A stretch of 64,000 bases of DNA from Streptomyces sp. NBC_01707 (GTDB lineage: Bacteria; Actinomycetota; Actinomycetes; Streptomycetales; Streptomycetaceae): contig NZ_CP109190.1 in the NCBI RefSeq assembly GCF_041438805.1, positions 124,001 to 188,000 on the forward strand, read 5' to 3'. How positions within the stretch are numbered: the stretch's first letter is position 1; every line of letters starts with the position of its first letter. The position numbers and the translations under genes are program-made. Shown here piece after piece: positions 33,845-61,830 of the stretch. Below the pieces are notes generated by a model. That model made no database searches. It was given only the letters and a program-made list of their open reading frames with translations, and had not been told where the DNA came from.

Positions 33845-35912
33845 GCGCCGGTCTGGAGCTGCGATCCCCTCGGCGTCCTACCTGGAAGAGGCCTTCCTAC
33901 GCTGGGTGCTCACTCCAGCCGCGCAGCGGGGCATCGTGGCGCATGTACGCAGTCAGCATCCGGTGACGGTCAACGAACGGACCTACCGACTGGACTATCT
34001 GATCGCTGGCGAGTCGCTGCATCTGGCCGTGGAGTTGGACGGGTTCACCTTCCACAGTGACCGTGCCGCCTTCACCTACGACCGGTTGCGGCAGAACGAC
34101 CTGGCGGCCACGGGGCTGACGGTGCTGCGGTTTTCCTACGACGCGGTGCGCCTGGACACCGCACGCTGCGTCGCGCAGTTGCAGGCGATGCTGCGCCAGG
34201 ATGCCGTGCTCTCGCCACTGGTCATCGCCGCGCCGCGCGTCGAGGTCCCGGAGATGGTGGGCGATCCCCTGCGGGCGGCCGATCCGCCTCGGGGTACCCG
34301 GTCATCTGCAGATGAGGCCTACTTCGCCGGTGTGCGCGCTCAGGTGACCCGAGAGCCGTTGCGTACCTGCCAGGACGAGGCCCTGGCCGCGCTGGCCAAC
34401 TACTACGCTTCCGGCGGTCGGCATGCGGCCACGGTGATGGCGGTCGGGGCCGGCAAGACCGCGCTGGGGGTGGCGGCCGCGTTGTCCTTCACCAGGCGGC
34501 GAGCGCTGGTGGTGACTCCGGGCTCGGTCATCCGCGGCACCTTCGCCAAGGCACTCGACCCCGGTGTGCCGGGCAATGTCCTGTACGGGCTGGCGGGCGG
34601 GCCCCTGCTGCCGGGTGCCCGGCCGCCGGCCACACTGGTGCTGGACGCGGATGACGAGCAGATCAGCCAGGTGAGTCGGCAGCGGTTGCTGGCTGCGGAC
34701 GTGCTGGTCACCAACTTCCATGCGCTGGGTACTGGCGACAAGGGCGGGGACCTGCTGGCCAAGCTGGAGCCGGGCGATGTCGACTTCATCGTGGTCGACG
34801 AGGCCCATATCGCGGCCAGCGCCTCCTACCAGCGGCTGTTCGCCCACTTCCGGGATGCGCGCACGCTGTTGATGTCGGCGTGCTTCCAGCGCCTGGACGG
34901 CAAGCCGATCGACGCCGATGTCGTCTACCGCTACCGGCTGGTGGATTCCATCGCGGACGGCTCGGCGAAGAACCTGCGCGTGCACCGGTTCGCCCCGGAC
35001 GCGGCGACGACGGTGTACGAGGCGGTGTGGTCCGACGGGCGACGCGAGCAGATCACCGGCCGCGATGCGCTGTTGGCCGCGTTGGGCGACGAGCGGAGGA
35101 TGGCCCGCATCACCGCGCAGTCCGATGCCTCGATCCGGCAGGTGATGATGGTGACGCGGGCCTGTCTGGATGCGCAGGCCAAGCTGCTGGCCCCGGTCAA
35201 ACCCCGGGCGCTGTTTGCGGCGATGGGTGAGGCCCACGCTCAGCAGATCGCCCGGATCGCCGAAGAGCACGGCATTCCCTGCGCCACGCTGCACCACAGC
35301 ATGTCGCCGTCGTCGATCAAAGCCACACGGCGGCGCTTCGAGTCGGACGCGGGTGATCTGCAGGGCATCGTGCAACTGCGGATGCTTGGCCAGGGCTACG
35401 ACTTCCCGCCCATCACCGTCGTCGTACCGGTGCGTCCCTATGGCAGTTTCGGCGAGTTCTACCAGTTCATCGGACGTGGCGTGCGGGTGCTGCGCCAGCC
35501 GGGTCTGGCCGCCGATCAGCAGTATCTGGATGTGGTCTGCCATGCCGAACTCGGCCTTGAGGACCATCTGGAGGCCATGTGCGCGGACAACGACATGGAT
35601 CCCGCGCTGCTGCTCGGCGTTCCCTTGATCGACACCTCCACGCTGGAGGCGGACTTCGCCGGCGGTAACGGCCTCGGGGAAAGGGACTCTGACAGTGCGC
35701 TCCCGGTCGGAGTCGACGCGTTCGTGCTGTACGAGCAGGGGCGTGTTGAGCAGCGGGTCGTGCATGACCTGGACCGGGTGGAGGCCCGGCGGGCGGAGCG
35801 GGAAATGCAGCTGATGGCCCAGCGCTACGCCGTCTACGCGCAAAACACCGCGGCTCCGATGCCGTTTGAGAAGTTCGTCGACTACATGCGGAGGCTGACC
35901 GGTGGCCAGTGA
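33841..35912 (+). CDS. DUF559-type nuclease fused to SF2 helicase
   Basis: About 690 residues. The N-terminal Vsr/DUF559-like nuclease domain (about 5-105) has RLDYLI, VELDGFTFH and the closing RLRQNDLAATGLTVLRFSYD. The two RecA-like helicase domains follow: motif I AVGAGKTALG, motif II VVDEAHIA, motif III LLMSACF, motif VI QFIGRGVRV. The ATG at 33841 overlaps the previous stop, but its frame reaches the nuclease domain only if one G is added near 33860 (giving LELAIPSASYLEEAF). Without it, translation would have to start in the other frame. The last bases overlap the next gene. It probably translocates on DNA and cuts it; nuclease-helicase fusions of this kind are common in antiphage systems. 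Confidence 0.75.
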
Positions 35913-38633
35913 CCAGCCGCGCTGGTGGCAACCCGTTATCGATGCGTCCCCCGAAGACGCGCTTGCCTTCGAGGCAGCTGCCGGCCAGCAACAAAGGTTC
36001 GTCCAGCTCGACACGCTCGCCACCCGGTTGCTGACTGCAGCGCTCCACGGCCAGCCCACGGTCTCGGTGGTCCGCAGCACCGGGCCGCAGGCCGCGGACA
36101 ACGTCGAGGTGCTGGGGCTCAGATCCCAGGAAAAGGCGTGGTGCGCTGAAACGTTCGGGGTGCCGGAGCAGCAGCGGCGCGGTGCCTGGTACCTGCCGCA
36201 GAAGCTGTCACTGAAAGCCGGGTCGGTGAACCTGCCCCAGCTGGTGCGCGAACGCCCAGCCCATGCCCTGACGCTGGCCGCGGACGACTCGGCCAGCGTG
36301 AGCCTGGTGGACGGCGCAGCCGACGCGGTGCTGCTGTGGGCAGTGCTGGTCCCGTTGTTCGAGACACTGATCGAACCGATCCGGGTTCGGGCAGCGGGGT
36401 CTGGGAAGACGACCGACGACCAGCGGCAAATGTGGTCCGGCATCGAGGAACGCTACCGGCTGCTGGGCATCGCCGGCGATGTTCTGGATGCCTTCCGCTT
36501 CGGCGGCAGATGGCACCGGCTGGACCGGCACGGCCAGCAGCACGCCCGCCTGCGCCTCCTGGACGCTTTGGCGGCCGTTGATCCGCTGCAGCTCGTCACC
36601 CGCCATCGCATCCTGCAACTGCAGGCGCTGATGGCCGGATTCGCCAAGAAATCCAAGACCGGCACCGCCCTCGCGCGCCGGGTTGTGACGCGCGCACTGC
36701 AGCCGGTTGTCTCCGGCTACTTCGCCGGCGACTGGCTGGCCACGCTGGACTACCTGCAGGCGCCGCCGCACCCGACGAGGAGGTCATCACCGCGCTGCCC
36801 GAACCGCGCCTGTATGTGGGAATGTCCGCCCAGGCGGCCGACATGGCAGCCGAGGCAGGCATCCCAGAGGACGAGATCCACGCGATGCTCGCGGCCTTCC
36901 TCGGCGGCCCGACCTCCCTCTCCCCCGTCGAAGAACGCGTGGCGGCTCTGCGCGAGTGGTGGACGGCCTTCGACCAGGCGCACGCCGTCCAAAGACCCGG
37001 CATGCGGCCGCTGTGGGGGCTCGTCGACGACAACATCATGGCCTTTTCCTGGCAGGACGAACACGGCTTCACCCAGCAGCTGTACCGGCAGGTGCTGCCC
37101 GCTTCCGTCAACGAGCAGGTGGACCGGCTGTGGCAGTCGGTGACCCTGCAGCGGCACGCCAAGAGCCTCGTCAGCAACCCCCGCCCCCACCAGCTGATGG
37201 CCGAAGCCCTCGGCCCCGCCCCGGAGTTCTGGCACGGCGTCGCGCTGACCGCCTGGTTTGTGTGCGAAGGCCCCTACTCCCGCGCTCCCCTGTCCGGTGT
37301 GGCCGACTACTACAGCCGCACCCTCACCGCGCTGACTGCCGCCGGCTGCCCGGTCCCCCCGGACTTGTTCGAGGAACTGCGCATCGCTGAGCAGCACCTG
37401 GGCCCCGCAGAGATGATCATCAAGGAGCGCACAGAGCTCCCGGTGGACACCGCCATCGGCGCCTTCACCATGACGTCGACCATCAGCGGCGGCAGCCGCC
37501 GCGAAGGCTTCGAACGGGCCCGCGACATCATCACCCGCCATCGTCGTGCCTGGACCGAGCAGTACCTCGACACCTACCTGCAGCAGCGCTGGCGCACCGC
37601 CTTGGAAGGCGTCGCCCAGGCGCACCACCGGTTCGTGGCCGCGAAGGGCCGTCCGCCCACCCTGATCCAGTTCGCCCAGTTCGCCACCGCCGCAGCCAAC
37701 CAGTGGACCGGCGGCGACCTCGGCGCTCTCTACACCGCGATCGGGGAACCCGCACCCGCCCAGCAACTGCACCCGGCCCGTCTGCTGCCGGGTGACGGCT
37801 ATGACGTCGCCCAGCGCGTCTACACCGCGCTCGGCGGCACCACGGTCGACAACGACCTGCGCATGAACCAGCCCGAAGAAGCCCGACGGCAGTGGCAACT
37901 CAGCCGCCTAGCCGTCGAAAGCCTGCGATACCTGCAGCTCCACGAAGCGCTCGGACAGCCCCCAACGGGCAAACAGTTCGGCTCTTCACGCCTGGCCTGG
38001 CCATGGCCCGGAGAGGAAACTGAGGGCTGGCCGCTTTTCCAGCACACCCTCGCCGCTCTGACCAACACCAGCCCGCCCGCAAGTGAACCTGCCGCAGGGA
38101 CGGCCGAGGCCGCCCCAAGCCTGCTGGACAACACCAAGCACGTGCTGGCCAAGGGAGCCAACGCCCCTCTGCGAACCGAATCGGTAGCGGTGCGCCTCAT
38201 CACTACCGGCGTGCCAGTCGATGTCTCTGCCGTACTCCTCACCAGCCACGGCAAAGTACGCAGCGACCACGACCTGGTCTTCTACAACCACCCGCACCAC
38301 GACGGAGTCCGCACCAGCGGCGACACGGTCACCGCAGATCTGCCGCACGTACCCGACGACGTCCACACCGTGGCCGTCATCACCAGCATCGACCTCGAAG
38401 CCCAACCCACCGCTTCCTTCGACCAGAACACCACGTGGCACGTCGAGGTCACCCAACCCGCTGGCGGCGGACTCGCCTTCACGCCTGCCCCGTTCGTCTC
38501 GGGCGAGACCGTCACCATCGCTATGGAGATCTACCGGCATGGTTCGGGCTGGAAAGTACGTGCTGTCGGCCAGGGCTACGACACCGGGCTTGCTGGCCTG
38601 GCCGCGGACTACGGCATCAACGTCGAACCCTGA
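35902..38633 (+). CDS. large protein with C-terminal TerD domain, one frame break
   Basis: About 910 residues when the frames before and after 36771 are joined by one added C (PPHPDEEVITALPEPRLYV). GTG at 35902 lies within the end of the helicase gene, so translation is coupled. The N-terminal 700 residues are mostly helical and unrecognised. The last 160 residues are a TerD domain: VDVSAVLLTSHGKVRSDHDL, VFYNHPHHDG, HGSGWKVRAVGQGYDTGLAG. TerD domains bind calcium and belong to the tellurite/phage-resistance Ter network. A TerD domain at the end of a long chain, in an operon with a nuclease-helicase, is not an arrangement I know. If the break is real the TerD part could still be made from an internal start such as 36816. 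Confidence 0.7.
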
Positions 38634-39282: not shown

Positions 39283-41373
39283 ATGAAACGGTTCCGGGTG
39301 AGGCGCCCGACCCGTGGCGAGGACGGCACCGAGCAAACGGCGCCGCCCGTCAGCGTCAGCGAGAGCGGTGATGCCGTCGCCACGGATAGCGGCGATGCGC
39401 TGAGCGGCTACCGCGGCCCGGGCCCCCAGGCGGATGGCCGGGCCGTGCGGGTGGAACGGTCAGGCGATGCGATCGCCGCGGCCGCCCATGCGGTGGCCAT
39501 CAGCGGCAATGTAAGCCAAGTGCTGGTCTCTGCTCCCCCGCCGCGCCAGCCGTTGCATTGGCCCGTCCGGTTGGGCTCGGTACCGGTGCTTGCGTCTGCA
39601 TTCCAGGACCGGTCTGCGGTGCGCGATCGGATCGATCAGGCCAGGGCAGGCCATACCACGGTGGTGCTGGCCCAGGTCCTGTCCGGCGGCGGGGGCGTGG
39701 GCAAGACCCAACTCGCTGCCGCCTATGCCCACCAGGCTCTGGAGGACGGCATCGACTTGGTGGTGTGGGTCGACGCCAGTGACATCGAGCAGGTCATCGC
39801 ACGTTACGCGCATGCCGCACAGGTCGTGGAAGCGGCGGCGGAACACCTTCTGGGCAAGAGTGCTGAGTCCGATGCCGGACTGTTCCTTCAGTGGCTGGCG
39901 ACCACCCGACGCCCGTGGCTGCTCATCCTTGACGACCTCACCGATCCAGAGGCCATGCAGAAGTGGTGGCCGCCGTCCTCCGCTTTCGGTTGCGGCCGCG
40001 TCGTGGCGACGACCCGCCGCCACGACGCGGTGCTGTCCGGCGGCGGCCGAGCCGTGGTGGACATCGACACCTACAGCACGGAAGAGGCCGAGGCCTATCT
40101 GCACGAGCGGCTCGACTCGGCGCATGCCGCCCATCTCATGGACTCTCAGGCCGGTGAACTGGCTGCGGCACTGGGCTACCTGCCGCTGGCTCTGTCACAC
40201 GCGGCCGCCTACATGGTCAACGAAGACGTCCCCTGTACGGAGTATCTTCACCGCTTCAACGGCAGCACAGCACGCCTGGACGACCTGCTGCCACGCACGG
40301 CAGACACCGAGGGCTACGGGCGGCAGGTCGCCGCGGCTCTCCTGCTCTCATTGGATGTCGCTCAAGCGAGCGAGCCCGTCGGCCTGGCTGTTCCGGTCAT
40401 GCGTCTGGCCGCCGTTCTGGACCCGGCCGGACACCCCCGTTCCCTGTGGGCCAGCGACGCCGTCACCCACTACCTCGACACCCAACGCACCGTACCTCCC
40501 AACGGAGTTACCGCCGCCGTTGATCCCGACCAGGTGCGGGCAGCCCTGCGACTTCTGCACCGCTACGGCCTGCTCGCCGATCACGCTCAGGCTGGTTCCC
40601 GCGCGGTGCGGCTGCACGCCCTGACCGCACGAGCCGTACGCGAGTGCACTCCCGACGCCACGGTGCAGGCGGTCGTGAAAACCGCCGTCGACTCGTTGAG
40701 GGAACTGTGCGACGAGGTCCCGTGGTTCGACCGTGAGGCGACAGCCGTGCTGCGCACCAACATCGACAGCGTCGATGCACGCGCCGGGGACCTGCTGTGG
40801 AATGTCGAAGGCCATTACCTCCTGCGCTGGACTTTGCGCAGTCTGATCAGTGTCGGCCTTGCCACTGCAGTTCCCTACGGGCAGCGGCTGATCGGCATCA
40901 GCGAGCAACTGTTGGGCCGCGCTCACCCCATGACCCTCGTCGCTCGACGCGATCTCGCATGGGCCTGCCTCCTCGCGCGCCGTCACAAGGATGCCTTCAC
41001 GCTCCTGCAGGAGGACTTACCCCACCAGGACGAGCGTCTGGCCCGTGAACGACAGGAGCCCTCTACGGCTGCCCGTGGGCGCGTCCATGCCCTTGCACTG
41101 CTGGAGGACACCGTTGCTGTTCGCGCACGACTGTTGGGTCCTGGAGACCCCGCGACCCTGGAATGCCAAGTCAAACTCGCCGTCCTGTACTGGTCCCGGG
41201 GCGACAGGTCGGCGGCCACTGCCCTGCTGAACCGATCCCTCACCGGCTGCCGGACAACGTTCGGCGCCGACCATCCGTACACCGTCTCGGTCGACAACCG
41301 GCTGTCCCACTGGCAAGAGCAGCACCAGAGGCGCTGGTGGAGTTGCACACGCAGCCAGTCCAAGCCGACGTAG
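39283..41373 (+). CDS. STAND (NB-ARC-type) NTPase with SGDA tags
   Basis: 696 residues. The N-terminal 80 residues carry two tags (SESGDAVATDSGDALSG and VERSGDAIAAAAHAVAISG). The NB-ARC module follows: Walker A GGGGVGKT at 135-142, Walker B LLILDD at 213-218, RxxxTTR-type sensor in GCGRVVATTRRHD, GLPLAL-like YLPLALSHAAAY. Next comes a winged-helix segment. The C-terminal part is TPR-like (LARRHKDAFTLLQ, TALLNRSLTGCRTTFG). STAND proteins are switch ATPases that oligomerise on sensing a trigger; many bacterial ones act in phage defence. ATG 39283 (GAGAGG upstream) is preferred; ATG 39253 is possible. It follows the small tagged membrane protein by 37 bases. Confidence 0.8.
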   Translation: MKRFRVRRPTRGEDGTEQTAPPVSVSESGDAVATDSGDALSGYRGPGPQADGRAVRVERSGDAIAAAAHAVAISGNVSQVLVSAPPPRQPLHWPVRLGSVPVLASAFQDRSAVRDRIDQARAGHTTVVLAQVLSGGGGVGKTQLAAAYAHQALEDGIDLVVWVDASDIEQVIARYAHAAQVVEAAAEHLLGKSAESDAGLFLQWLATTRRPWLLILDDLTDPEAMQKWWPPSSAFGCGRVVATTRRHDAVLSGGGRAVVDIDTYSTEEAEAYLHERLDSAHAAHLMDSQAGELAAALGYLPLALSHAAAYMVNEDVPCTEYLHRFNGSTARLDDLLPRTADTEGYGRQVAAALLLSLDVAQASEPVGLAVPVMRLAAVLDPAGHPRSLWASDAVTHYLDTQRTVPPNGVTAAVDPDQVRAALRLLHRYGLLADHAQAGSRAVRLHALTARAVRECTPDATVQAVVKTAVDSLRELCDEVPWFDREATAVLRTNIDSVDARAGDLLWNVEGHYLLRWTLRSLISVGLATAVPYGQRLIGISEQLLGRAHPMTLVARRDLAWACLLARRHKDAFTLLQEDLPHQDERLARERQEPSTAARGRVHALALLEDTVAVRARLLGPGDPATLECQVKLAVLYWSRGDRSAATALLNRSLTGCRTTFGADHPYTVSVDNRLSHWQEQHQRRWWSCTRSQSKPT

Positions 41374-50461: not shown

Positions 50462-53293
50462 CTAGAGGGTGGCGGGATCGCCGGAGGCTAGGGCGGAGGC
50501 AAGGTCGGTGGTGGCGGTCGCCTCCTCGATCCGTTCAGATTCGGCTACTTCGTGGTAGGCGACGAACCGGGTGCCGTCAGGCTGGAGACGGCTGAAGTAG
50601 TAGCAGCTGCTGTTCGATCCGAACGTTGTCGGGCGCAGCTTGATCAGTGGAGCTAGTCGGAGCGCGCTTCCGCTGTCGCGGGAGACGAGGTAGAGGCCGT
50701 CCTCCTCCAGGGGCAGGCTGGTCTGGATCCGCTCCTGTTTGAGCGTTGTGTTCGGTCCCATCGCCAGGTCTACGTCATGGTGGTGCACCCCGTTCCTGAA
50801 CCGGGCGCCGCCGGCGCGCACCAGGGGGAAGTCCAGCCAGCCGGAACCGATCAGGTTCCGCAGGGTGTGTATGTGGCCGGTCAGGATATCGAGCTGCTCC
50901 TTCAGGGAGTCGTCGCCTGTCGTCCCGGAGTGGCCGCTCCAGGTGTTGCGTCGTTGGATCACTTCTCCGAACAGGTTCGTGACGTCGGTGCTGAGGAGGG
51001 TGTCCAGGAAGTCTGGTGGGGCGTCGGCGAAGGCTGCTCGTGCTCGTGCCTGCTCGTCGGTGTCGGTTCCGGTCAGTGCAGTGCGGTATCTCTTGGTGAG
51101 GCGCTGCAGGATGATGTGCCAGATGCCGAGGGTGGCGCGCTCGGGGGTGATTCCCACGTCGTGGAACTGTGCGGCGAGGGCAGGGAGTTCCTGTTCGAGG
51201 CGTGAGCGGTCCTGGAGAAGGGCGGAAAGAACGACGGTGGCGTGGAACTGGATGGTGGCGTCCCAGAAGTGGAACATCTGGGCGTGGCGGGCGTGGAGGT
51301 TGTTGTCGCCTTTGGATTCGTACGCCCATAGGGCGCTGGCTATGGGGAAGGGCAGGCTGGCTGTCCATTGGGCGAGGTCTGCTGACGGGATGAGGCGGTT
51401 GGCCTCTCGGTAGATGTCGGAGCGCTTCTTAGGGTCGTTCCAGAGCTCTCGGTGCGAATCGATCAAGTGACGGCGGGCTGCTACCAGTGCGCGTTCTGTG
51501 CGGGCCATGTCCCGCTGGACGGACAGGTCCGGCAGGGCGATCAGGAGGTCGTCAGCCATGCGCCATGCCTGGGAGAGGTTGACGGTTCGGGGGCTGACGT
51601 AGCTGTCGCTGCCGGAGCCGGTGGCCGCTGAACGCAGGCGCCGGCCCAGGGGGGAATTGAGCCAGCCCGCAAGGTATTCGGCGTCCGTGTGTGTGTCCCT
51701 GGTCCGGAGCACGAGGATGCGGTTATCGGGTGCGGCTTCGCCTGGGTCCCCGGTCACTGCATCCAGATGGGGTTCGATGGGGAGGATGAGAGCTTGCTCC
51801 CCCGTGACGGATGACAGCATGGCGGGGCGGTCGGCGGATTTAGCCGAGGGGATGTAGGAGATGTGCTCGGTCAGCTCCGTCAGGCGGGCGGTCTTCCAGC
51901 CGAGCTGGGTGAGGTCTCTCAGTGCACGCGGAGTTCGGTCGGTTCTGAAGACGCGGTCCACGTCGAACCTCGTGACCTGTGAGTTCGGTATTTCCCTCAC
52001 GTCCGGTCTCGTCGTGGCATACCGGGTGTCGCGCCACGCTTCGGTGGCGGTGGTTGTCGGCAGGAGCATGGTCAGGGACGGTACGTCGCGTGGCTCGGGC
52101 TTGCCGGTGGCTGCGGTGGTGTGGTGGGTGACGGTGACCTGGCGGAAGGAGAGATCCTTTGCTGAGGCTGTTCTGCTGTAGGCCGTCGGCTTCTGATGCT
52201 TCAGGCTCCGAGCCAGCTCGTCGAGGGCTGCCCCGCTGATCGTGCGGTGCTCACGTCGGCGGGTGTCCCCGTCTCCGTAGAAGCCGCGGAGGTCGATGAA
52301 CTGCACCTTGTTCCGGCGCGACTTGGGCTTGTTGTTGGAGAAGATCAGGGCGAACAGCCGGAAGCTGGTGCTCGTGCTGAGCCCTTGGGGCAGGGCGACT
52401 ACGGCGTCCAGGAGGTCTTGGTCGAGCAGCCAGGTGCGGATCGTGGTACCGCCGGTGTCGTGCAGCGGCCCGGTGGCGGTGAACATAATGCCTCGGCCGC
52501 CACCCTCTGCCGGATCTCGAAGCTTGCTGAGCAGGATCTGGGCAAACAGCAGGGAGGCGTTCTGGGGCTGTGGAAGGCCGGCGGGGAAGCGTCCATCCGA
52601 GCGGGCGGCCTCTGCTGCACACCCCGCGAAGCTGTCGTTCCACGACAGGTTGTAGGGGATCTCTGCCACCGTGTAGTCGAATCGACGGTTGGGGAAGGCG
52701 TCGTGTTCGAGGGAGTTCGACCGGCTGAATTCGGCGTCGGCGCCGAGGAGTAAGGCGTGGGCCCGGGCGCGTTGGACCGTGGCCGCGTTGACGTCCTGGC
52801 CCGCGATGGTGGCAGGTGTTCCTGTCTGCTCAGCCAGCGCGTGTGCCGTATCCAGCGCCAGGGTGGCGGAGCCGCACGCCGGATCGTAGAGCTGCGTCGC
52901 CTCGGTGCTGGATTCGCGCTCGTATGCCGTCAGGGCGGTTCTGGCGATCTTCACCAGAGAGGTGGACGTTGTGAACTCTCCACGGTGGTCCGAGGCGGAG
53001 TAAGGCCGCAGCAGCATCCGGGCGTAGTGACGTATCTGGTTCGGGGTGTAGCCGTGCAGCGCCTGCTGCTCGCCTTGCAGTGTGGAGTCCAGCGTAGGGA
53101 TTCTGCGCTGTGCCTGTCGTGCAGCATTCTGCAGGTGGTCGAGCTCCGGCGCAGGCAGGCCCGTGGTCCGGGTTCTCCAGTCCACCGCGTTCCACAGCAG
53201 CATGTCAGCCATCTCGCTGACATCCATACGCCCCCGCAGGGAGTCAAGGAGACGCCACAGGCGCTGTTCGACCGGCCGCTGCTCTTCGGTCAT
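50462..53293 (-). CDS. N6-adenine methylase-like protein with HsdS-like C-terminal part
   Basis: 943 residues. The first part follows HsdM: a helical N-terminal domain, then motif I DPACGSA at 137-143 and an SAM-binding AGQDVNAATVQRARAHALLL. Where catalytic motif IV should read NPPY/F there is EIPY (211-214), followed by NLSWNDS. Later residues (YLAGWLNSPLGRRL, SQAWRMADDLLIALP, LSVQRDMARTERALVAARRH) look like a target-recognition half of HsdS. There is no restriction subunit next to it. Without the normal motif IV it may recognise DNA without methylating it; alternatively EIPY may be a tolerated variant. A small ribbon-helix-helix-like gene lies just upstream. Confidence 0.72.
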   Translation of the reverse strand: MTEEQRPVEQRLWRLLDSLRGRMDVSEMADMLLWNAVDWRTRTTGLPAPELDHLQNAARQAQRRIPTLDSTLQGEQQALHGYTPNQIRHYARMLLRPYSASDHRGEFTTSTSLVKIARTALTAYERESSTEATQLYDPACGSATLALDTAHALAEQTGTPATIAGQDVNAATVQRARAHALLLGADAEFSRSNSLEHDAFPNRRFDYTVAEIPYNLSWNDSFAGCAAEAARSDGRFPAGLPQPQNASLLFAQILLSKLRDPAEGGGRGIMFTATGPLHDTGGTTIRTWLLDQDLLDAVVALPQGLSTSTSFRLFALIFSNNKPKSRRNKVQFIDLRGFYGDGDTRRREHRTISGAALDELARSLKHQKPTAYSRTASAKDLSFRQVTVTHHTTAATGKPEPRDVPSLTMLLPTTTATEAWRDTRYATTRPDVREIPNSQVTRFDVDRVFRTDRTPRALRDLTQLGWKTARLTELTEHISYIPSAKSADRPAMLSSVTGEQALILPIEPHLDAVTGDPGEAAPDNRILVLRTRDTHTDAEYLAGWLNSPLGRRLRSAATGSGSDSYVSPRTVNLSQAWRMADDLLIALPDLSVQRDMARTERALVAARRHLIDSHRELWNDPKKRSDIYREANRLIPSADLAQWTASLPFPIASALWAYESKGDNNLHARHAQMFHFWDATIQFHATVVLSALLQDRSRLEQELPALAAQFHDVGITPERATLGIWHIILQRLTKRYRTALTGTDTDEQARARAAFADAPPDFLDTLLSTDVTNLFGEVIQRRNTWSGHSGTTGDDSLKEQLDILTGHIHTLRNLIGSGWLDFPLVRAGGARFRNGVHHHDVDLAMGPNTTLKQERIQTSLPLEEDGLYLVSRDSGSALRLAPLIKLRPTTFGSNSSCYYFSRLQPDGTRFVAYHEVAESERIEEATATTDLASALASGDPATL

Positions 53294-55301: not shown

Positions 55302-56246
55302 TCAGGCTGCTTGCCGCCGTAGGTAGGCGATCGCCTTTTGGAGAACGTCGAGGTTGTCATCGAAGTGGCCGATGCCGAGGTTGCAGGAACGACACAGCAA
55401 CCCGCGGATCCTGCCGGTCCGATGACAGTGGTCGACGTTGATCTGGCTGCCGGTCTCAGCGAAGGGCCGGTCGCAGACCCCGCACCGGTCGTCCTGCGCC
55501 TTCAGCATCGCCAGGTAGCCCTCGACGGTGAGGCCGTACTCCTTCTTCAGGTTCTGTCTGAAGGCGACCGTGGCGCGGCACCGCTTGCAAACGCGGTTGC
55601 CGTCGCGGTTGATCCAGACGTTATTGCCGTCGAGTAGGTGGCCCTTGTAGCAGTGGGTCTTCTCCCGGTTGTGCGACCTGCGTTCGCGGGAGGCCGGGTC
55701 GATGCCCTGGGAACGCAGCTTTGACTCCCAGGAGCACTGCCGACAAGACCAGGCCCCGGTGACCGGGTTGGTATAGAGATTCTCTTCGTCCAGCGGATGC
55801 CCGTTGGCGCACAGGTCGGGCACGACCCGCTCCTTTTTGGGTGCACCGAACGCCTGCTCGCCGAGGTCGCGCCACAGGCGGGAGTGTGTGTGATTGACGC
55901 ACAACCGCTTGTTCGGGCAGTTACGAGTGAGCGTCTGGCCCTTCTTCAGGGCACCTCCGTGGTACTCGTACATCCATCGCTGTACGTAAACGAGCGGGTT
56001 CTCGCCGCGCTGGTACCGGTCGCCGTCGTAGTACCGAGGACGTCCGTCCTTGTCGGTGTCTCCGGTCCAGATCATGCAGCCGGCGTTGGCGAGCTTCACG
56101 TTGGCCATAACGACGGCGATGCTGATCGGCGGCTTCTGTCCTACGAGCTCGGTTGTTCCGTTGCGCTTGAATCGCCGGTAGCAGGGCTGGCACATGCCCC
56201 TACGAGAGGCGAGCTTGCCGCAGCCCGTACTGCACGTTTTCGACAT
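55302..56246 (-). CDS. endonuclease VII domain (HNH) protein
   Basis: 314 residues. The N-terminal zinc knuckle is CSTGCGKLASRRGMCQPC. The middle repeats NCPNKRLCVNHTHSRLWRDL and CANGHPLDEENLY/CYKGHLLDGNNVWINRDG resemble phage HNH accessory modules. The C-terminal recombination endonuclease VII domain is YGLTVEGYLAMLKAQDDRCG with CDRPF, then VDHCHRTGRIRGLLCRSCN and a closing helix. T4 endonuclease VII resolves branched DNA; many actinophage and Streptomyces copies act as free-standing homing-type nucleases. ATG 56246 is chosen as the start of the zinc knuckle. It is probably of phage origin. Confidence 0.82.
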   Translation of the reverse strand: MSKTCSTGCGKLASRRGMCQPCYRRFKRNGTTELVGQKPPISIAVVMANVKLANAGCMIWTGDTDKDGRPRYYDGDRYQRGENPLVYVQRWMYEYHGGALKKGQTLTRNCPNKRLCVNHTHSRLWRDLGEQAFGAPKKERVVPDLCANGHPLDEENLYTNPVTGAWSCRQCSWESKLRSQGIDPASRERRSHNREKTHCYKGHLLDGNNVWINRDGNRVCKRCRATVAFRQNLKKEYGLTVEGYLAMLKAQDDRCGVCDRPFAETGSQINVDHCHRTGRIRGLLCRSCNLGIGHFDDNLDVLQKAIAYLRRQAA

Positions 56247-56674: not shown

Positions 56675-57169
56675 ATGGCGGTTGAGCCGACGGAGACCGC
56701 GTGGCGTATTCAGGCGGCTGTTGCGGATTGGACGGCCAAGGCTGATTCGAAGGCGTCGTTCGCTCTGACAATGCAGTCCACGGCCTTGGCGGTTCTGGGG
56801 CTGCTGGCGACATCCAAGCGAGCGTCTGGTGATCTCGACTCCGCTGCCCCGCGTCTTCTGTTGTGGATCGGCGTGCTGCTGATGGTGGGCGGAGTCAGCT
56901 GCGCGGCTTGGGCTATCTCGCCCAACCTCCGCAAGGAACGACGAGGGCCGGAAAACGATGACGACTTCCTGTACTTCGGGCACGTCCGGCACCTGGACCC
57001 GGAGGTGCTGGAGGCCGCGCTGCGGAACAAGGACCCGTTGCCGTCGTTGTCCCGGCAGGTTGTGGTGATGAGCGAGATCGCCTGGAATAAGCACCGCCGG
57101 GTGCAGTGGTCGCTGATGTTGGCGGTCGCGGGATGTGCCGCCTTCGGCCTGGCGACCGTCGTCGGATGA
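56675..57169 (+). CDS. Pycsar-effector-like membrane protein (DUF5706/PycTM type)
   Basis: 164 residues; AGGGGG lies eight bases before ATG. The family signature W-x3-AD-x-KAS appears as ADWTAKADSKASFALTMQS at about 18-36, at the head of the first membrane helix. A second helix (about 67-87), a soluble part (YFGHVRHLDPEVLEAAL, SRQVVVMSEIAWNKHRRVQW) and a last helix follow. In Pycsar, such proteins are triggered by cCMP or cUMP from a class III cyclase and damage the inner membrane to stop phage. A cyclase gene lies two genes downstream, which supports the assignment. It is the first gene of a compact run ending near 61830. Confidence 0.78.
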   Translation: MAVEPTETAWRIQAAVADWTAKADSKASFALTMQSTALAVLGLLATSKRASGDLDSAAPRLLLWIGVLLMVGGVSCAAWAISPNLRKERRGPENDDDFLYFGHVRHLDPEVLEAALRNKDPLPSLSRQVVVMSEIAWNKHRRVQWSLMLAVAGCAAFGLATVVG

Positions 57170-57189
57170 CACACCAGGAGAGCACCGTG

Positions 57190-57894
57190 ATGAACTTCCG
57201 CTCCCTGGTATCCACCGACGTCTGGCGCGACCTGATCGACCGCGGTCGTCAGCGGACCTACCCATCCAAGTCTGTGCTCCTCGCGCAAGGCGAGTCACCC
57301 GACTGCGTGATCGCATTGGTCGAAGGCCTGGTAAAGGTCGTGCAGAGCAACGAGTGCGGCGACGAACTAACTTTAATGCTGCGCGGACCTGGCGAAGTCC
57401 TCAGGGAAATGGGTGCCTTACTTGGTCGTCCTCGCTCAGCCACTGTCACGGCGGCGCGCCGCTGTACCGGCGTGGTGCTGCCCGCTCATGCCTTCCGCGG
57501 CTACGTTGAGCGGCATCGTCTGGAGACGGTCATCTACCAGCTGACCGTGGAACGGCTGAACAGCCACGAGCGCCTTCGGGCAGACCTCGTACACCTGCCC
57601 CCTACCGGACGCGTGGCCCGAGTAGTGAGTCGTCTTGCGGACGAAGTCGGTCACCCCCAGGGAGTGACCGGCCTGCTCGTGGAGCTGGGGATGCCCCGCG
57701 CCGAGCTGGCCACCATGGCGGCCATGCGCCGTTCATCCGCACTTGCAGCCCTGGGCCAACTCCAGTCGGCCGGCATTCTCACGCTCGGCCGTCGGCGTCT
57801 AATCATCACGGATGTGGCCCGCCTCAAGGCAGTCGCCCGAGGGGAGGAGCTCCCCGGCGCCAAAGGCCGCGACGACGCCACACCTGCGATGTGA
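57190..57894 (+). CDS. Crp/Fnr-like cyclic-nucleotide-binding regulator
   Basis: 234 residues; AGGAGA precedes ATG at the usual distance. The N-terminal cNMP-binding beta-roll has LLAQGESPDCVIALVEGLVK and the phosphate-binding cassette region EVLREMGALLGRPRSATVTA, in which Glu and Arg needed for the cyclic phosphate are kept. The C-terminal part is a winged helix with LVELGMPRAELATMAAM and GILTLGRRRLIITDVARL. It begins 20 bases after the membrane effector and 111 bases before the cyclase. It could read out the cyclase product and control transcription of the operon. Confidence 0.8.
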   Translation: MNFRSLVSTDVWRDLIDRGRQRTYPSKSVLLAQGESPDCVIALVEGLVKVVQSNECGDELTLMLRGPGEVLREMGALLGRPRSATVTAARRCTGVVLPAHAFRGYVERHRLETVIYQLTVERLNSHERLRADLVHLPPTGRVARVVSRLADEVGHPQGVTGLLVELGMPRAELATMAAMRRSSALAALGQLQSAGILTLGRRRLIITDVARLKAVARGEELPGAKGRDDATPAM

Positions 57895-58005
57895 CTCACC
57901 ACACGCCCGTACCGTCCAACGCTGGACCATTCCGTTCTTGCCTCTCGACGAGCGTTTCCTTCGCCGTCATTCGCGGCGAAACACACGCGACGAGAGGAGC
58001 AGCAC

Positions 58006-58791
58006 TTGTTGCCGTCATGGGAGCCGTTGTGGCCCTACCGGGCAGTCCTGGCCGTGGACGCCCGGAATTTCAGTGCGCTGGACAGCAAGGGCATGCAGCA
58101 GGTGAACGCCGATATCCCGCCATTGCTGGCGCAGGCACTCAGCGAGAGCAACGTGAGCGCTCACTGGGAGCGGCGTATGTTCGGCCAGCACACCGGCGAC
58201 GGCTATGTCGCCGGCATGGATCCGGAAGTCCTGCCTGCCCTGGTGGGTTGCTTCCCCGAAGCCCTCCGGGCAGCTCTCGCTCGCCGACGGGCCGAGACCC
58301 CGGCAGGCCCGCCCCTGCAGCTGCGGGTCAGCATTCACGTTGGCCCGCTGCCGAACAGCGGACTGGGCGTGCCGATGGTGCACATCCACCGCCTCCTGGA
58401 CGACGACGCGCTGCGAGCCGTGCTCAACCGTGCGAACCCGGAGATCACCAACACCGTGGTGATCATCTCGCAGCGCGTGTACGAGGACGTAGTCGAAAGC
58501 GGATGCGTCAACGGCGATGTCCTGCCAAGCCAGTTCACCAGCCACCTGGCGAGGGCGAAGAAGTTCCAGCAGCCGGCCTGGATCCACATCCCCGGGTTCG
58601 ACTGGAGGCTCGCGGACCCGGACATCTTCGAACCGGTCAACGCCACTGATGCGGTCACTGAGCAGCCGAAGGCCCCGGCGTCCATGGCAGCTCAGGCGGC
58701 TGCACCGGTCCCGGGCACGGTGAACTTCAGTCACCACGGAGAGCACGGCGTCCAGACGTACAACCTCTTCGGCACGGGGCGGGGGCAGTGA
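58006..58791 (+). CDS. class III nucleotidyl cyclase homologue with C-terminal tag
   Basis: 261 residues from TTG, with AGGAG seven bases upstream. The cyclase fold is visible. First-strand metal Asp18 is in AVLAVDARNFSALD, second metal Asp65 in QHTGDGYVAG, and then LQLRVSIHVGPL, with a domain end near 195. The residues that choose the base cannot be judged by eye; in Pycsar the products are cCMP or cUMP. The last 25 residues, after a Pro/Ala linker, carry GTVNFSHHGEHGVQTYNLFG, almost the same as a segment at the start of the next protein. Its stop overlaps that gene's ATG (58791). Position next to a PycTM-like effector and a cNMP receptor supports a signalling role. Confidence 0.75.
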   Translation: MLPSWEPLWPYRAVLAVDARNFSALDSKGMQQVNADIPPLLAQALSESNVSAHWERRMFGQHTGDGYVAGMDPEVLPALVGCFPEALRAALARRRAETPAGPPLQLRVSIHVGPLPNSGLGVPMVHIHRLLDDDALRAVLNRANPEITNTVVIISQRVYEDVVESGCVNGDVLPSQFTSHLARAKKFQQPAWIHIPGFDWRLADPDIFEPVNATDAVTEQPKAPASMAAQAAAPVPGTVNFSHHGEHGVQTYNLFGTGRGQ

Positions 58792-60845
58792 TGATCGACC
58801 ACGAGCAGGGGAACCAAGACCGCATCAAGCCCACTTCACCGTCGGCAGAGTTCGTCGCGCCGCACGAGCACGCAGGTTCCCCTCCACCGCCAGAGGGCGG
58901 CGAGCCGAACGGCCAGACGCATCCCAGCTCAGTGAGTTTCACTCACGCCGGCAAACACGGCATCCAGGCCTACAACCTGCACCTGAACGGCGACCAGGCG
59001 ATCCCCGTCCCCATCACCGAGAGCGATGCCGACTACAGGGCGAGCCAGGACGGCCGGTTCGTCCCGCCGCGCAACACAGATCAGTGGCAGGCCGCTTCCA
59101 AAGAGCTGAACGAGTACGGAATCGTCGTGCTCTGCGCAGCCCAGGGCACCGGCCGACGCACGGCTGCCATGCGCCTTCTGCGTACGGCGACCACCCCTCC
59201 GCCGGCCATCTTCGGCCTCGACCCGGAATGGTCCAAGCCCTCGATCCGCCCGCTGCCGAAAGAGGCGGGGACGGGATACCTCCTCGATCTCTCCGACCTC
59301 GCGGAGCAACCCGGCGAGCGGCTAGGCACCGACCTGGTCGGCCATGGGGCGGAACTACGCAAGAACAACTCCTTCCTCGTCATCCTGGCCACACCCGCCG
59401 ACTGGTACGGCCACTGGGCCGAACCCACGCTGCCTTTCACCACCCGGTTGGAGTCTCCCGACGCGCGGGCCCTCGTCACAGCGGAATTCCGGACGCACCA
59501 CCACGGCGATCGTGTGTTCTGGCTGGAAAGGAAAGAGTTCGCTGACATCTGGAAAGCCAACCCGTCCGCGCGCGCCGCGTGGCGTCTGGCCGACCGTCTG
59601 CTCCACGCTCCCGGCCCGGAGCAGATCCAGGCGATCGTCGACGAGTTCGGCGACTGGCACACGGAAGTCGAGAAACTCCTCAGCAAGGATCGGGCGAGAG
59701 GGAGCGACGCACAGCTGCTTTCCACCCGGGTCACGGTCTGGGCCGGCGCCCTGCTGCACGGGGGACAGCGCAGGTCCATCGTTAAGGCAGCCGAAGACCT
59801 CCTGACCCGACTCGGCCACGAACGCAGCCCCGCCAACGTTCTGACCGACGCCACCACATCGAGCCGGCTGAAGGCCGCGGAGATCACTCGTGAGGGGGAT
59901 CGCGCATTCCACGACACGTTGAAGAAAGGCCTGCCTGCCGCCATCCTGCGTCACTTGTGGGACGAATTCCCCACCCAGCACGAACTCCTGCGCAGGTGGG
60001 CCATCGGCATCGCTGCAGACCGGACCGTCCCGGAAGAAGACGCCCGCCTGGTCACCACTGCACTGTGGATGCTGGCGGTGCACCGCCATGACCGAGCCAT
60101 CCTCGACGGGCTGGCGAGCGACCTCAATGGCCCCCGGAGGGCCCTGGCCGTGGAGGCCCTTACCAATGCAGCCGGAGATGCCGAGTTCGGCCGCTACGTC
60201 AGGGACCGCCTGCGCCAGTGGATGGATGCCCAAAACCCTTCGGACAACAAAGTTGACCTCGTCATCGCAATGTGTGCAGGCACCTGGGGAATGCAACAGC
60301 CGGCCCTCGCACTGACACGGCTGGGTAAAGCCGCAGGGCACAAGGCATTCGGCTCCGCAACCGTCGTAACTGCCTTCAGGCAACTCGCGTTGCACCGACC
60401 GGACGAGGTGCGCAAAGCCGTCGACCAATGGCTCAGCGACGCCGAAGCCCGGCCCGACGACGACACCCTGCGCCGCCAAACTCTCGGATCCTTCCTCGCC
60501 CTCGTCTCCAGCGATGAGGGAACAGACCTCATCCTGAACGACACACTCGCCCCCGAGGCCCGGCTGCGCATCATCCACGCATGGCAGAAGCTGCTGTCCA
60601 CCGACGACGCCGTGGACGCGGTCGTCACGCAACTGTCGCAATGGCATGAGCGATTCCAAGAGGCCGTCGATCGCCGGGAAGTCGTGGTGGACGTCCTCGC
60701 CGACATCTTCACCCCGCCCAGCCTCCGCCCCGGTCTCGACCGGCTCATGGTGACGAAAGAGTCGGCCATTCTTCCCTTCTGGCGCGAGGTCCTGGTGCTG
60801 GCCGCCAACCGCTACCAGTCGTCCAAGGAGGCATCGACCCCTTGA
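58791..60845 (+). CDS. STAND-like P-loop NTPase with N-terminal tag
   Basis: 684 residues. An unfolded, Pro/His-rich start leads to the tag SSVSFTHAGKHGIQAYNLHL at about 47-66, shared with the cyclase end. The NTPase begins near 85; its P-loop is CAAQGTGRRTAA (Arg in place of Lys), a variant seen in other actinobacterial STAND-type proteins. A helical C-terminal half of HEAT-like repeats follows (RRALAVEALTNAAGDAEFGR, RRQTLGSFLALVSSDEGT). With the coupled cyclase it forms the core of the locus. It may be a sensor that recruits the cyclase through the tag, or an effector driven by it. ATP hydrolysis is uncertain because of the altered P-loop. Confidence 0.65.
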   Translation: MIDHEQGNQDRIKPTSPSAEFVAPHEHAGSPPPPEGGEPNGQTHPSSVSFTHAGKHGIQAYNLHLNGDQAIPVPITESDADYRASQDGRFVPPRNTDQWQAASKELNEYGIVVLCAAQGTGRRTAAMRLLRTATTPPPAIFGLDPEWSKPSIRPLPKEAGTGYLLDLSDLAEQPGERLGTDLVGHGAELRKNNSFLVILATPADWYGHWAEPTLPFTTRLESPDARALVTAEFRTHHHGDRVFWLERKEFADIWKANPSARAAWRLADRLLHAPGPEQIQAIVDEFGDWHTEVEKLLSKDRARGSDAQLLSTRVTVWAGALLHGGQRRSIVKAAEDLLTRLGHERSPANVLTDATTSSRLKAAEITREGDRAFHDTLKKGLPAAILRHLWDEFPTQHELLRRWAIGIAADRTVPEEDARLVTTALWMLAVHRHDRAILDGLASDLNGPRRALAVEALTNAAGDAEFGRYVRDRLRQWMDAQNPSDNKVDLVIAMCAGTWGMQQPALALTRLGKAAGHKAFGSATVVTAFRQLALHRPDEVRKAVDQWLSDAEARPDDDTLRRQTLGSFLALVSSDEGTDLILNDTLAPEARLRIIHAWQKLLSTDDAVDAVVTQLSQWHERFQEAVDRREVVVDVLADIFTPPSLRPGLDRLMVTKESAILPFWREVLVLAANRYQSSKEASTP

Positions 60846-61639
60846 CGACCGATGGACCTGGCCCGTGGTGGAGCCGCCGGCGCAGTCGGATCCGGGCCCA
60901 GTGGCCCACGCGTCTGCCCGGTATCCGCTTCTGCGCCCGCGGCACACTCACCTACGGCGCACATGCCCCCCTCAAGACCGGCGGCACCGCCGCCACCCGA
61001 GCCGCAGCACGACTCGCCCTGGATCAACTCGGCCGTGGCATCACCGAGCGCCACATGCCCGAACAGCTCGCCACAGCTCAGGAACGCCTCACACTCGCCG
61101 CGGCGCACTGGCACACCCCCGAAGACACTCCTGGCCTCTGGCTCAAGGCGCACGTCACCCTGATACTCACCGAGCAAGACGTGGACCGGTCCCAGAGGTA
61201 CCAAGACGCCTTACGCGAGGTGACGCTACAGCTCGCGCAGGATCACGAACGCCGAGAACGGTTCAGACAAGCGGTCTTGGACACGCCGGACGCTACGCGC
61301 ATCTGGTGGCTCGACCGTCACCTGGACGATCTGGACTCCCTCGACTGGGCCGTCTTCAAGGAGAAGATCCTCCCACTGGTCGGCGCAGCCGACGACATAC
61401 AGTCCAAGGCCGAGCGCATCGCCCAAACTCTCCTGTACGTCTGGGAGAAATTGGGCGACAACCCAGGCCAGCATGCACGCTTCATCACCACAATGCGTAC
61501 CGTCCTTGGGCAAATGGGATGGAGCGACGCGGTTGCCTTTCCGGGGCCGGTCGAGCCATCAGCCGCTCATTCGCCGGAAAGCGTCCGCGTTGACGGGAGA
61601 GAGCCACGTCCAGTCGGTGAGGCGGGCGACGCCCGATGA
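60842..61639 (+). CDS. hypothetical protein of the Pycsar-like operon
   Basis: 265 residues from a TTG that overlaps the NTPase stop (TTGA). The protein is helical and soluble, with LVLTEQDVDRSQRYQDALRE-like coiled segments (around 105-150) and RIWWLDRHLDDLDSLDWAVF near 155-175. The last 35 residues look unstructured. I do not recognise a domain. The overlap on both sides shows it belongs to the same translation unit as the NTPase and the next small gene. Confidence 0.62.
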   Translation: MTTDGPGPWWSRRRSRIRAQWPTRLPGIRFCARGTLTYGAHAPLKTGGTAATRAAARLALDQLGRGITERHMPEQLATAQERLTLAAAHWHTPEDTPGLWLKAHVTLILTEQDVDRSQRYQDALREVTLQLAQDHERRERFRQAVLDTPDATRIWWLDRHLDDLDSLDWAVFKEKILPLVGAADDIQSKAERIAQTLLYVWEKLGDNPGQHARFITTMRTVLGQMGWSDAVAFPGPVEPSAAHSPESVRVDGREPRPVGEAGDAR

Positions 61640-61830
61640 AGCTATCCACCTTGCGCTGGCTGCTCGACCCGGCAACCAGCCTACTGGCCTTGCGGCTTCA
61701 TGCCCGAGAACGCGGGCGTATCTCCTACGACGCGGCTTGGCGGCTGGCCCGAGTGACACGCCATCCCGACGAAATGGTGTACCGACACCACGGGCATCTC
61801 GTCGAAAACTCCCGCGACGAACACCGCTGA
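61636..61830 (+). CDS. small basic protein at the end of the operon
   Basis: 64 residues, Arg- and His-rich (RLHARERGRISYDAAWRLAR). ATG overlaps the upstream stop by four bases. Too short to assign; it could bind nucleic acid. It closes the run that begins at 56675. Confidence 0.5.
   Translation: MKLSTLRWLLDPATSLLALRLHARERGRISYDAAWRLARVTRHPDEMVYRHHGHLVENSRDEHR

Follow-up and report, generated by a model that had tools for sequence, protein, structure and literature searches.

A Pycsar system, as described in PMC11224242, consists of PycC together with either PycTM or PycTIR. BASS motifs occur in NLR/BELL pairs and less often in CHAT and TIR proteins, according to PMC7889193. In the papers of Kaur et al. 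(PMC7159879, PMC8195603), adaptor domains bring cNMP cyclases to other NTPase systems, and iSTAND systems are reported to be almost absent from actinobacteria.

The operon compared with these systems here lies at 56675-61830 of a 64,000-nucleotide stretch of Streptomyces sp. NBC_01707 (contig NZ_CP109190.1, positions 124,001 to 188,000), which as a whole is referred to as the window. An earlier note on this DNA had read the operon as Pycsar-like. The PycTM protein and the class III cyclase of that reading were both recovered, and among the changes to it is the place of the cyclase, which proved to be one of three interchangeable effector kinds.

Composition and surroundings of the operon

All six proposed open reading frames are present on the same strand:

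56675..57169, + strand: gene 1, PycTM-type membrane effector, 164 aa (PF18967, E 9e-21; PADLOC PycTM, E 5e-37)
57166..57894, + strand: gene 2, Crp/Fnr-type cNMP-binding transcription factor, 242 aa (PF00027, E 2e-17; PF13545, HTH_Crp_2, E 2e-11)
58006..58791, + strand: gene 3, class III nucleotide cyclase, 261 aa (family profile against 3mr7; metal-binding Asp kept)
58791..60845 (alternative GTG start at 58788), + strand: gene 4, NLR-like P-loop protein with degenerate Walker A motif and helical-repeat C-terminus, 684 aa
59145..59162, + strand: degenerate P-loop of gene 4, GTGRRT (canonical P-loop GK[ST])
60842..61639, + strand: gene 5, SPFH/Band-7-like protein, 265 aa (AlphaFold2 model and Foldseek)
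61636..61830, + strand: gene 6, 64 aa, without a family

The PycTM and Crp genes, genes 4 and 5, and genes 5 and 6 each overlap by 4 bases and the cyclase and gene 4 by 1 or 4 bases, while a gap of 111 bases separates the Crp gene from the cyclase. The profile comparison proposed for gene 1 returned the expected PF18967 match, and the reading of gene 2 as a Crp/Fnr cNMP-binding protein held, with both of its Pfam matches above the curated cut-offs.

The cyclase gave no match in Pfam (E<=1), so that the proposed PF00211 comparison failed, and none in PADLOC, PycC models included; among the cyclase domains of 13 relatives, the only Pfam match at E<=0.1 was an unrelated one, and PADLOC again found nothing. 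The class III assignment itself was nevertheless borne out by a 13-sequence family profile, which matches the solved class III cyclase 3mr7 (E 1.1e-6, profile against PDB). The metal-binding Asp18 and Asp65 are each kept in 75 of 76 cyclase relatives, as is Arg129, and the Lys in 74; the position of the transition-state Asn is Val125 in the window cyclase and Asn in 34 of the 76. Cyclase relatives are present in 177 of 394 host-family genomes. Since the Pfam and PADLOC models tried miss so widespread a family, counts of Pycsar-type signalling in actinobacteria may be too low.

Gene 4, taken in the earlier note for a large ATPase, is a P-loop protein but, lacking the Walker A Lys, is probably not an active ATPase: among 91 relatives the residue following the invariant Gly is Lys in 5 and Arg in 64. 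Its AlphaFold2 model (pLDDT 80.6) has a P-loop fold and helical repeats, with residues 1-66 disordered. The highest Foldseek matches of the model are NLRP7 and NLRP3, with AVAST5 at rank 7 (best E 1.6e-3, none <=0.001), and alignment of the model with VIA-align returned AAA+ domains in general, Orc1/Cdc6 and other AAA+ proteins ranking above AVAST5. An nSTAND3 match was found in 6 of 20 gene 4 relatives (best E 1e-5), and PADLOC gave no match to gene 4. The modelled fold resembles NLR/Avs proteins weakly.

The two small genes at the end had been left as unknowns, which remains true of gene 6, for which Pfam, PADLOC and NCBIfam gave no match and which was found again after gene 5 in some relatives. 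Gene 5 had no PADLOC match either; its AlphaFold2 model (pLDDT 72.3 overall, mostly above 90 in residues 11-130) appears SPFH/Band-7-like, all 10 Foldseek matches at E<=0.001 being to SPFH-family proteins (prohibitin, HflK/C, stomatin and erlin; best E 3.4e-5).

The proposed defence-gene surroundings were likewise found in the window, where a NB-ARC/TPR protein adds to the following genes:

26530-28665: GmrSD
33963-35909: restriction-type helicase
50465-53293: N6 DNA methylase
55305-56195: endonuclease VII

The window also encodes, at 36822-38633 on the + strand, a 603-aa protein with a C-terminal TerD domain (PF02342).

Tag pairing and effector exchange

Conservation of the gene order, set as a test in the earlier note, was found: the order Crp (or Crp and PycTM), cyclase, P-loop gene and gene 5 recurs in many actinobacterial genomes. 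Gene 4 relatives are present in 53 of 394 host-family genomes and, by profile, in 53 of 394 host-class genomes. A single distant alignment had no conserved stretch, and a closer alignment was used for the profile scan of genome contigs, which yielded 17 loci from Streptomyces (13), Actinomadura, Kitasatospora and Saccharopolyspora among others. In all, 130 P-loop loci were gathered (designated by L numbers below); 123 have a same-strand partner within 300 bases (80 cyclases, 28 TIR proteins and 15 others), and the 7 with no such partner were left out. Some gathered loci overlap (e.g. L031/L130 and L033/L132), and redundancy was cut at 90% identity or lower before counting, leaving a non-redundant set of 114 loci with 71 cyclase, 28 TIR and 15 other partners. 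Genes were called with a custom codon-usage caller, and some starts are wrong (PycTM is shortened in one call set). In L129, a copy of the operon, the P-loop gene is split into two detected fragments.

The end of the cyclase and the start of gene 4 carry matching tags of about 20 residues:

58711..58779, + strand: effector-side tag at the cyclase C-terminus, PGTVNFSHHGEHGVQTYNLFGTG, matched best by the tag of the P-loop protein in its own locus
58923..58991, + strand: receptor-side tag near the N-terminus of gene 4, PSSVSFTHAGKHGIQAYNLHLNG, inside the modelled-disordered residues 1-66

A tag fused to the end of the cyclase and carried also by the supposed ATPase had been mentioned in the earlier note; the tag is real, and it is better described as a locus-specific link between the NLR-like protein and its effector than as an incidental fusion. 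Its core, HG[VI]QxYN, occurs only twice in the 9.9-Mb genome, at the cyclase end and at 58956-58976, and the reversed core pattern has zero matches there. Across the 114 non-redundant loci of the gene 4 family, the tags agree within each locus and vary from one locus to another, as in the pairs RASGHAQVVQVGGD/EASGHARVTQVGGD of L038 and GNLNRGTVHGGQQVSN/GNINAGSVSGGQHVRN of L101. Permutation by shuffling partners gave z 34.5 for the 114 loci (27.8 when shuffled within partner type) and z 16.4 for 25 loci under 30% identical (9.6 within partner type). In the 25-locus set the own partner ranked first for 17 of 20 cyclases, 2 of 2 TIR proteins and 1 of 3 others; with near relatives kept the figures are 26 of 71, 7 of 28 and 1 of 15, first ranks being fewer because close relatives have common tags. 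For the window tag, the own partner ranks first of 33 and, in a second set, first of 64.

Pairing is not uniformly strong. In five of 33 pairs (L049, L087, L089, L091 and L093), which also have weak ranks, the tag score did not exceed that of shuffled versions at p<0.1, and L049, L091 and L093 are at chance level in this 33-pair set. The own partner ranked 24 or worse of 64 in L049, L181, L184, L212 and L227. A recent tandem copy as the source of tag identity was considered and rejected on nucleotide identities of 59-85% with synonymous differences where the tag was aligned; the argument from synonymous differences is weak because of high-GC codon bias, and the linker instead of the tag was aligned in L121, L126 and L127. 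Gene 4 and its effector appear to recognise each other through the tag, as a link private to the locus.

Several of the tags and tag-like sequences stand apart. In a clade of cyclase loci with no gene 5 detected beside the P-loop gene (L084, L085, L091, L093, L094 and L095), most tags look helical (NIxxLAxxIExL). L107 (4713-5153, - strand), L109 (4369-4878, - strand) and L110 (9353-9853, + strand) each have one more small gene behind gene 5, with a tag-like C-terminal end of a different type (HNTVSGGTQHGPIVQ type). The NB-ARC/TPR protein of the window (39283-41373, + strand) has tag-like N-terminal repeats (SGDAVATDSGDALSGY), for which no matching partner end was found among the predicted proteins of the window.

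The effectors with matching tags at their C-termini fall into three kinds, namely cyclases, TIR proteins and small BELL-like proteins. Pfam confirmed one of the TIR partners (PF13676, E 2e-7). Most of the 15 other partners, about 145-190 aa long with a C-terminal tag, resemble BELL proteins; four were tried in Pfam and gave no match. Overlap between the P-loop gene and its partner gene is seen in 50 of 71 cyclase loci, 28 of 28 TIR loci and 11 of 15 other loci.

A tree of 91 P-loop domains, a quick tree with several long branches, needs 9 changes of partner type against a shuffled mean of 32.1. One of its clades (SH-aLRT 100) unites L037 and L040, with BELL-like partners, and L038 and L039, with cyclases, all bearing a single common tag type. 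Between the two pairs the P-loop proteins are 46-47% identical, the effector bodies have no significant similarity (best E 0.067), and Crp genes are present at L038 and L039 and absent at L037 and L040. In addition, the cyclase of L189 bears the tag of the TIR clade that holds its P-loop protein (support 83-93). These comparisons indicate that effectors have been swapped with the tag kept.

Loci L104-L113, L116 and others combine TIR, P-loop and SPFH-like genes and have, immediately upstream, a further gene of about 410-520 aa, which in L108, the one tested, encodes an HTH protein (PF13560). TIR loci of this type appear to form a tag-coupled system of their own, one lacking cNMP receptors.

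Predicted cyclic nucleotide receptors and operator

In the non-redundant set, Crp is present in 61 of 71 cyclase loci and PycTM in 20, both in 17 and neither in 7, and neither gene was found in any of the 43 loci with other partners (28 TIR and 15 other). As PycTM is absent from 51 of the 71 cyclase loci, Crp alone would be the usual receptor.

A two-part element lies between the Crp gene and the cyclase:

57890..57904, + strand: element part 1, GTGA-N6-ACAC, Crp-site-like, overlapping the Crp stop codon in the window
57911..57930, no strand assigned: element part 2, 20-base palindrome ACCGTCCA-N4-TGGACCAT, predicted operator of gene 2

Close relatives have, after the Crp gene and upstream of the cyclase, GTGA-N6-.CAC followed by ACCGTCCA-N4-TGGACGGT, and in L125 PycTM and Crp are inverted, yet the element stays with the cyclase. 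Part 1 could be aligned in 16 relatives, and its strict pattern is found in only 6 of 43 loci, where 0.21 would be expected, and in none of 18 TIR loci. The pattern G[CT][CT]CA-N4-TG[AG][AG]C of part 2 occurs in 18 of 43 cyclase loci less than 60% identical, against 0.09 expected in shuffles, an optimistic expectation because the pattern was chosen after viewing the sequences; the TIR loci, with 0 of 18, are the fairer control. The palindrome is missing in the other 25 cyclase loci, a pattern-free palindrome search was poorly separated from shuffles in many loci, and no inverted repeat was found upstream of PycTM.

Among 48 aligned Crp proteins, 23 have the palindrome, and its half-site covaries with the recognition helix: GTCCA goes with RSS in 7 of 8 (L206 has RST), GCCCA with RN in 10 of 11 and GTTCA with RTS in 4 of 4. 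L184, the exception, has the helix RTS, and a further palindrome of GTTC type lies closer to its Crp gene. The window genome holds one exact copy of the operator and four one-mismatch copies, and the loose operator pattern is not enriched in the window (5 matches, shuffle mean 4.04). A broad Crp regulon was rejected on the single exact operator, the four one-mismatch copies being close to chance by estimate. Because there is one exact genomic site and the site covaries with the helix, the most likely target of gene 2, acting through this predicted operator, is its own cyclase unit. The transcriptional branch proposed in the earlier note is therefore retained in a narrower form: the visible Crp target is the operon's own promoter, so that feedback, which the covariation suggests, is better supported than a broad branch.

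Proposed mechanism and relation to known systems

The reading that we favour, and consider probable though well short of secure, is that the NLR-like protein recruits the cyclase via an amyloid-type tag and that the resulting cNMP acts on PycTM and Crp. Gene 4, with its degenerate STAND-like P-loop, helical repeats and short N-terminal tag, would be the sensor and scaffold, and would oligomerise when activated, presumably by phage. Its tags, which match those at the cyclase C-terminus, would nucleate the assembly of the latter, most likely in the form of an amyloid-type beta-arch as in BASS motifs. Clustering of the cyclase, which would act as a dimer, may then switch on cNMP synthesis. By analogy with Pycsar, cNMP bound to PycTM would lead to membrane damage; bound to the Crp/Fnr protein it would direct this protein to the palindrome at 57911-57930, the site and its covariation being found in the sequences, and Crp would set positive or negative feedback on the unit of the cyclase and genes 4, 5 and 6. 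Placing the assembly at the membrane is probably the role of gene 5, the SPFH-like protein. In sister loci, which lack Crp and PycTM, the same core would work with tag-matched TIR or BELL-like effectors. A fuller version is tentative, and we would doubt it about as readily as hold it: an amyloid-type NLR signalosome of multicellular bacteria in which locus-private templated assembly acts through a class III cyclase and a diffusible cNMP on PycTM and on Crp-operator feedback, with cyclase, TIR and BELL-like proteins as interchangeable tag-addressed modules.

One other explanation, along the lines of the earlier note, is that the operon is a Pycsar system with added regulation. The cyclase itself would sense infection, gene 4 would have a regulatory role, and the tag would be an ordinary beta-strand docking motif that forms a 1:1 complex and no templated assembly. 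The presence of PycTM with a class III cyclase would fit this, as would tags that are short, lie in disordered ends and in some loci are weak or helical-looking. We nevertheless regard it as unlikely, since TIR and BELL-like effectors use an equal tag architecture on the same core without a messenger, PycTM is absent from most cyclase loci (51/71) and PADLOC's PycC models are unmatched. Alternatively, both tags could dock at one site of a third protein, most likely gene 5 with its SPFH-like fold, which would bring the cyclase and the NLR-like protein together, and match for that reason. SPFH is a scaffold fold, and gene 5 is present in 45 of 71 cyclase, 27 of 28 TIR and 12 of 15 other loci, but tags still match where gene 5 is undetected (L094, L101 and L114, in which distant copies may be missed), and this explanation seems quite improbable.

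Streptomyces development is under cAMP/Crp control, and the operon might accordingly be a developmental or metabolic cNMP circuit in which PycTM would be a regulated channel and Crp no more than an ordinary autoregulator. The single operator in the genome and the autoregulatory layout agree with such a circuit. Its patchy distribution (P-loop protein in 53 of 394 host-family genomes), the swapped death-type effectors and the restriction, methylase and NB-ARC genes nearby make this very improbable.

If recruitment of the cyclase by the NLR-like protein is correct, it would join templated NLR assemblies and second-messenger signalling, which are usually treated apart. The naturally matched tag pairs and natural effector swaps would offer a ready set for the specificity of a motif of about 20 residues, and the half-site of the Crp operator would be readable from the recognition helix.

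No paper was recognised as describing this system in the literature searched, which leaves most subscription journals outside; one preprint (PMC13142454) matches both 'pycsar' and 'amyloid'. Like Pycsar, the operon combines PycTM (PF18967) with a class III cyclase that keeps both metal-binding Asp. It differs in that its cyclase is unseen by Pfam and by PADLOC's PycC, in the added NLR-like and SPFH proteins and Crp regulator, and in the usual receptor of the family, which is Crp and not PycTM. Gene 2 shares with Crp/Fnr regulators the cNMP-binding and HTH domains and a palindromic operator, but it is local to the operon and its half-sites GTCCA, GCCCA and GTTCA track the recognition helix.

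As in the EAD-linked conflict systems of Kaur et al. (PMC7159879, PMC8195603), adaptor copies are found on core and effector and are more alike within a locus, and cyclases are recruited; these papers also include inactive STAND proteins and mention CRP-like factors and Band-7 domains. The operon differs from the systems described there in having no MoxR-vWA pair among the genes annotated here and an adaptor that is a motif of about 20 residues, whereas theirs is a small domain.

With BASS signalosomes, as presented in PMC7889193, PMC8086366, PMC12261475 and PMC9815663, the operon shares short motifs that match between the N-terminal end of an NLR-like protein and the C-terminal end of the effector beside it, as well as gene overlap, an occurrence in actinobacteria and, in the P-loop family of the operon, BELL-like and TIR partners. 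The likeness of the tags to BASS motifs is one of position and gene layout. The word cyclase is absent from the searched main texts of these four papers, and relative to the signalosomes described there the operon differs in having a nucleotide cyclase as effector, with separate cNMP receptors, and a degenerate P-loop in its NLR-like protein. By analogy, the operon may be said to work like a BASS signalosome with a Pycsar output.
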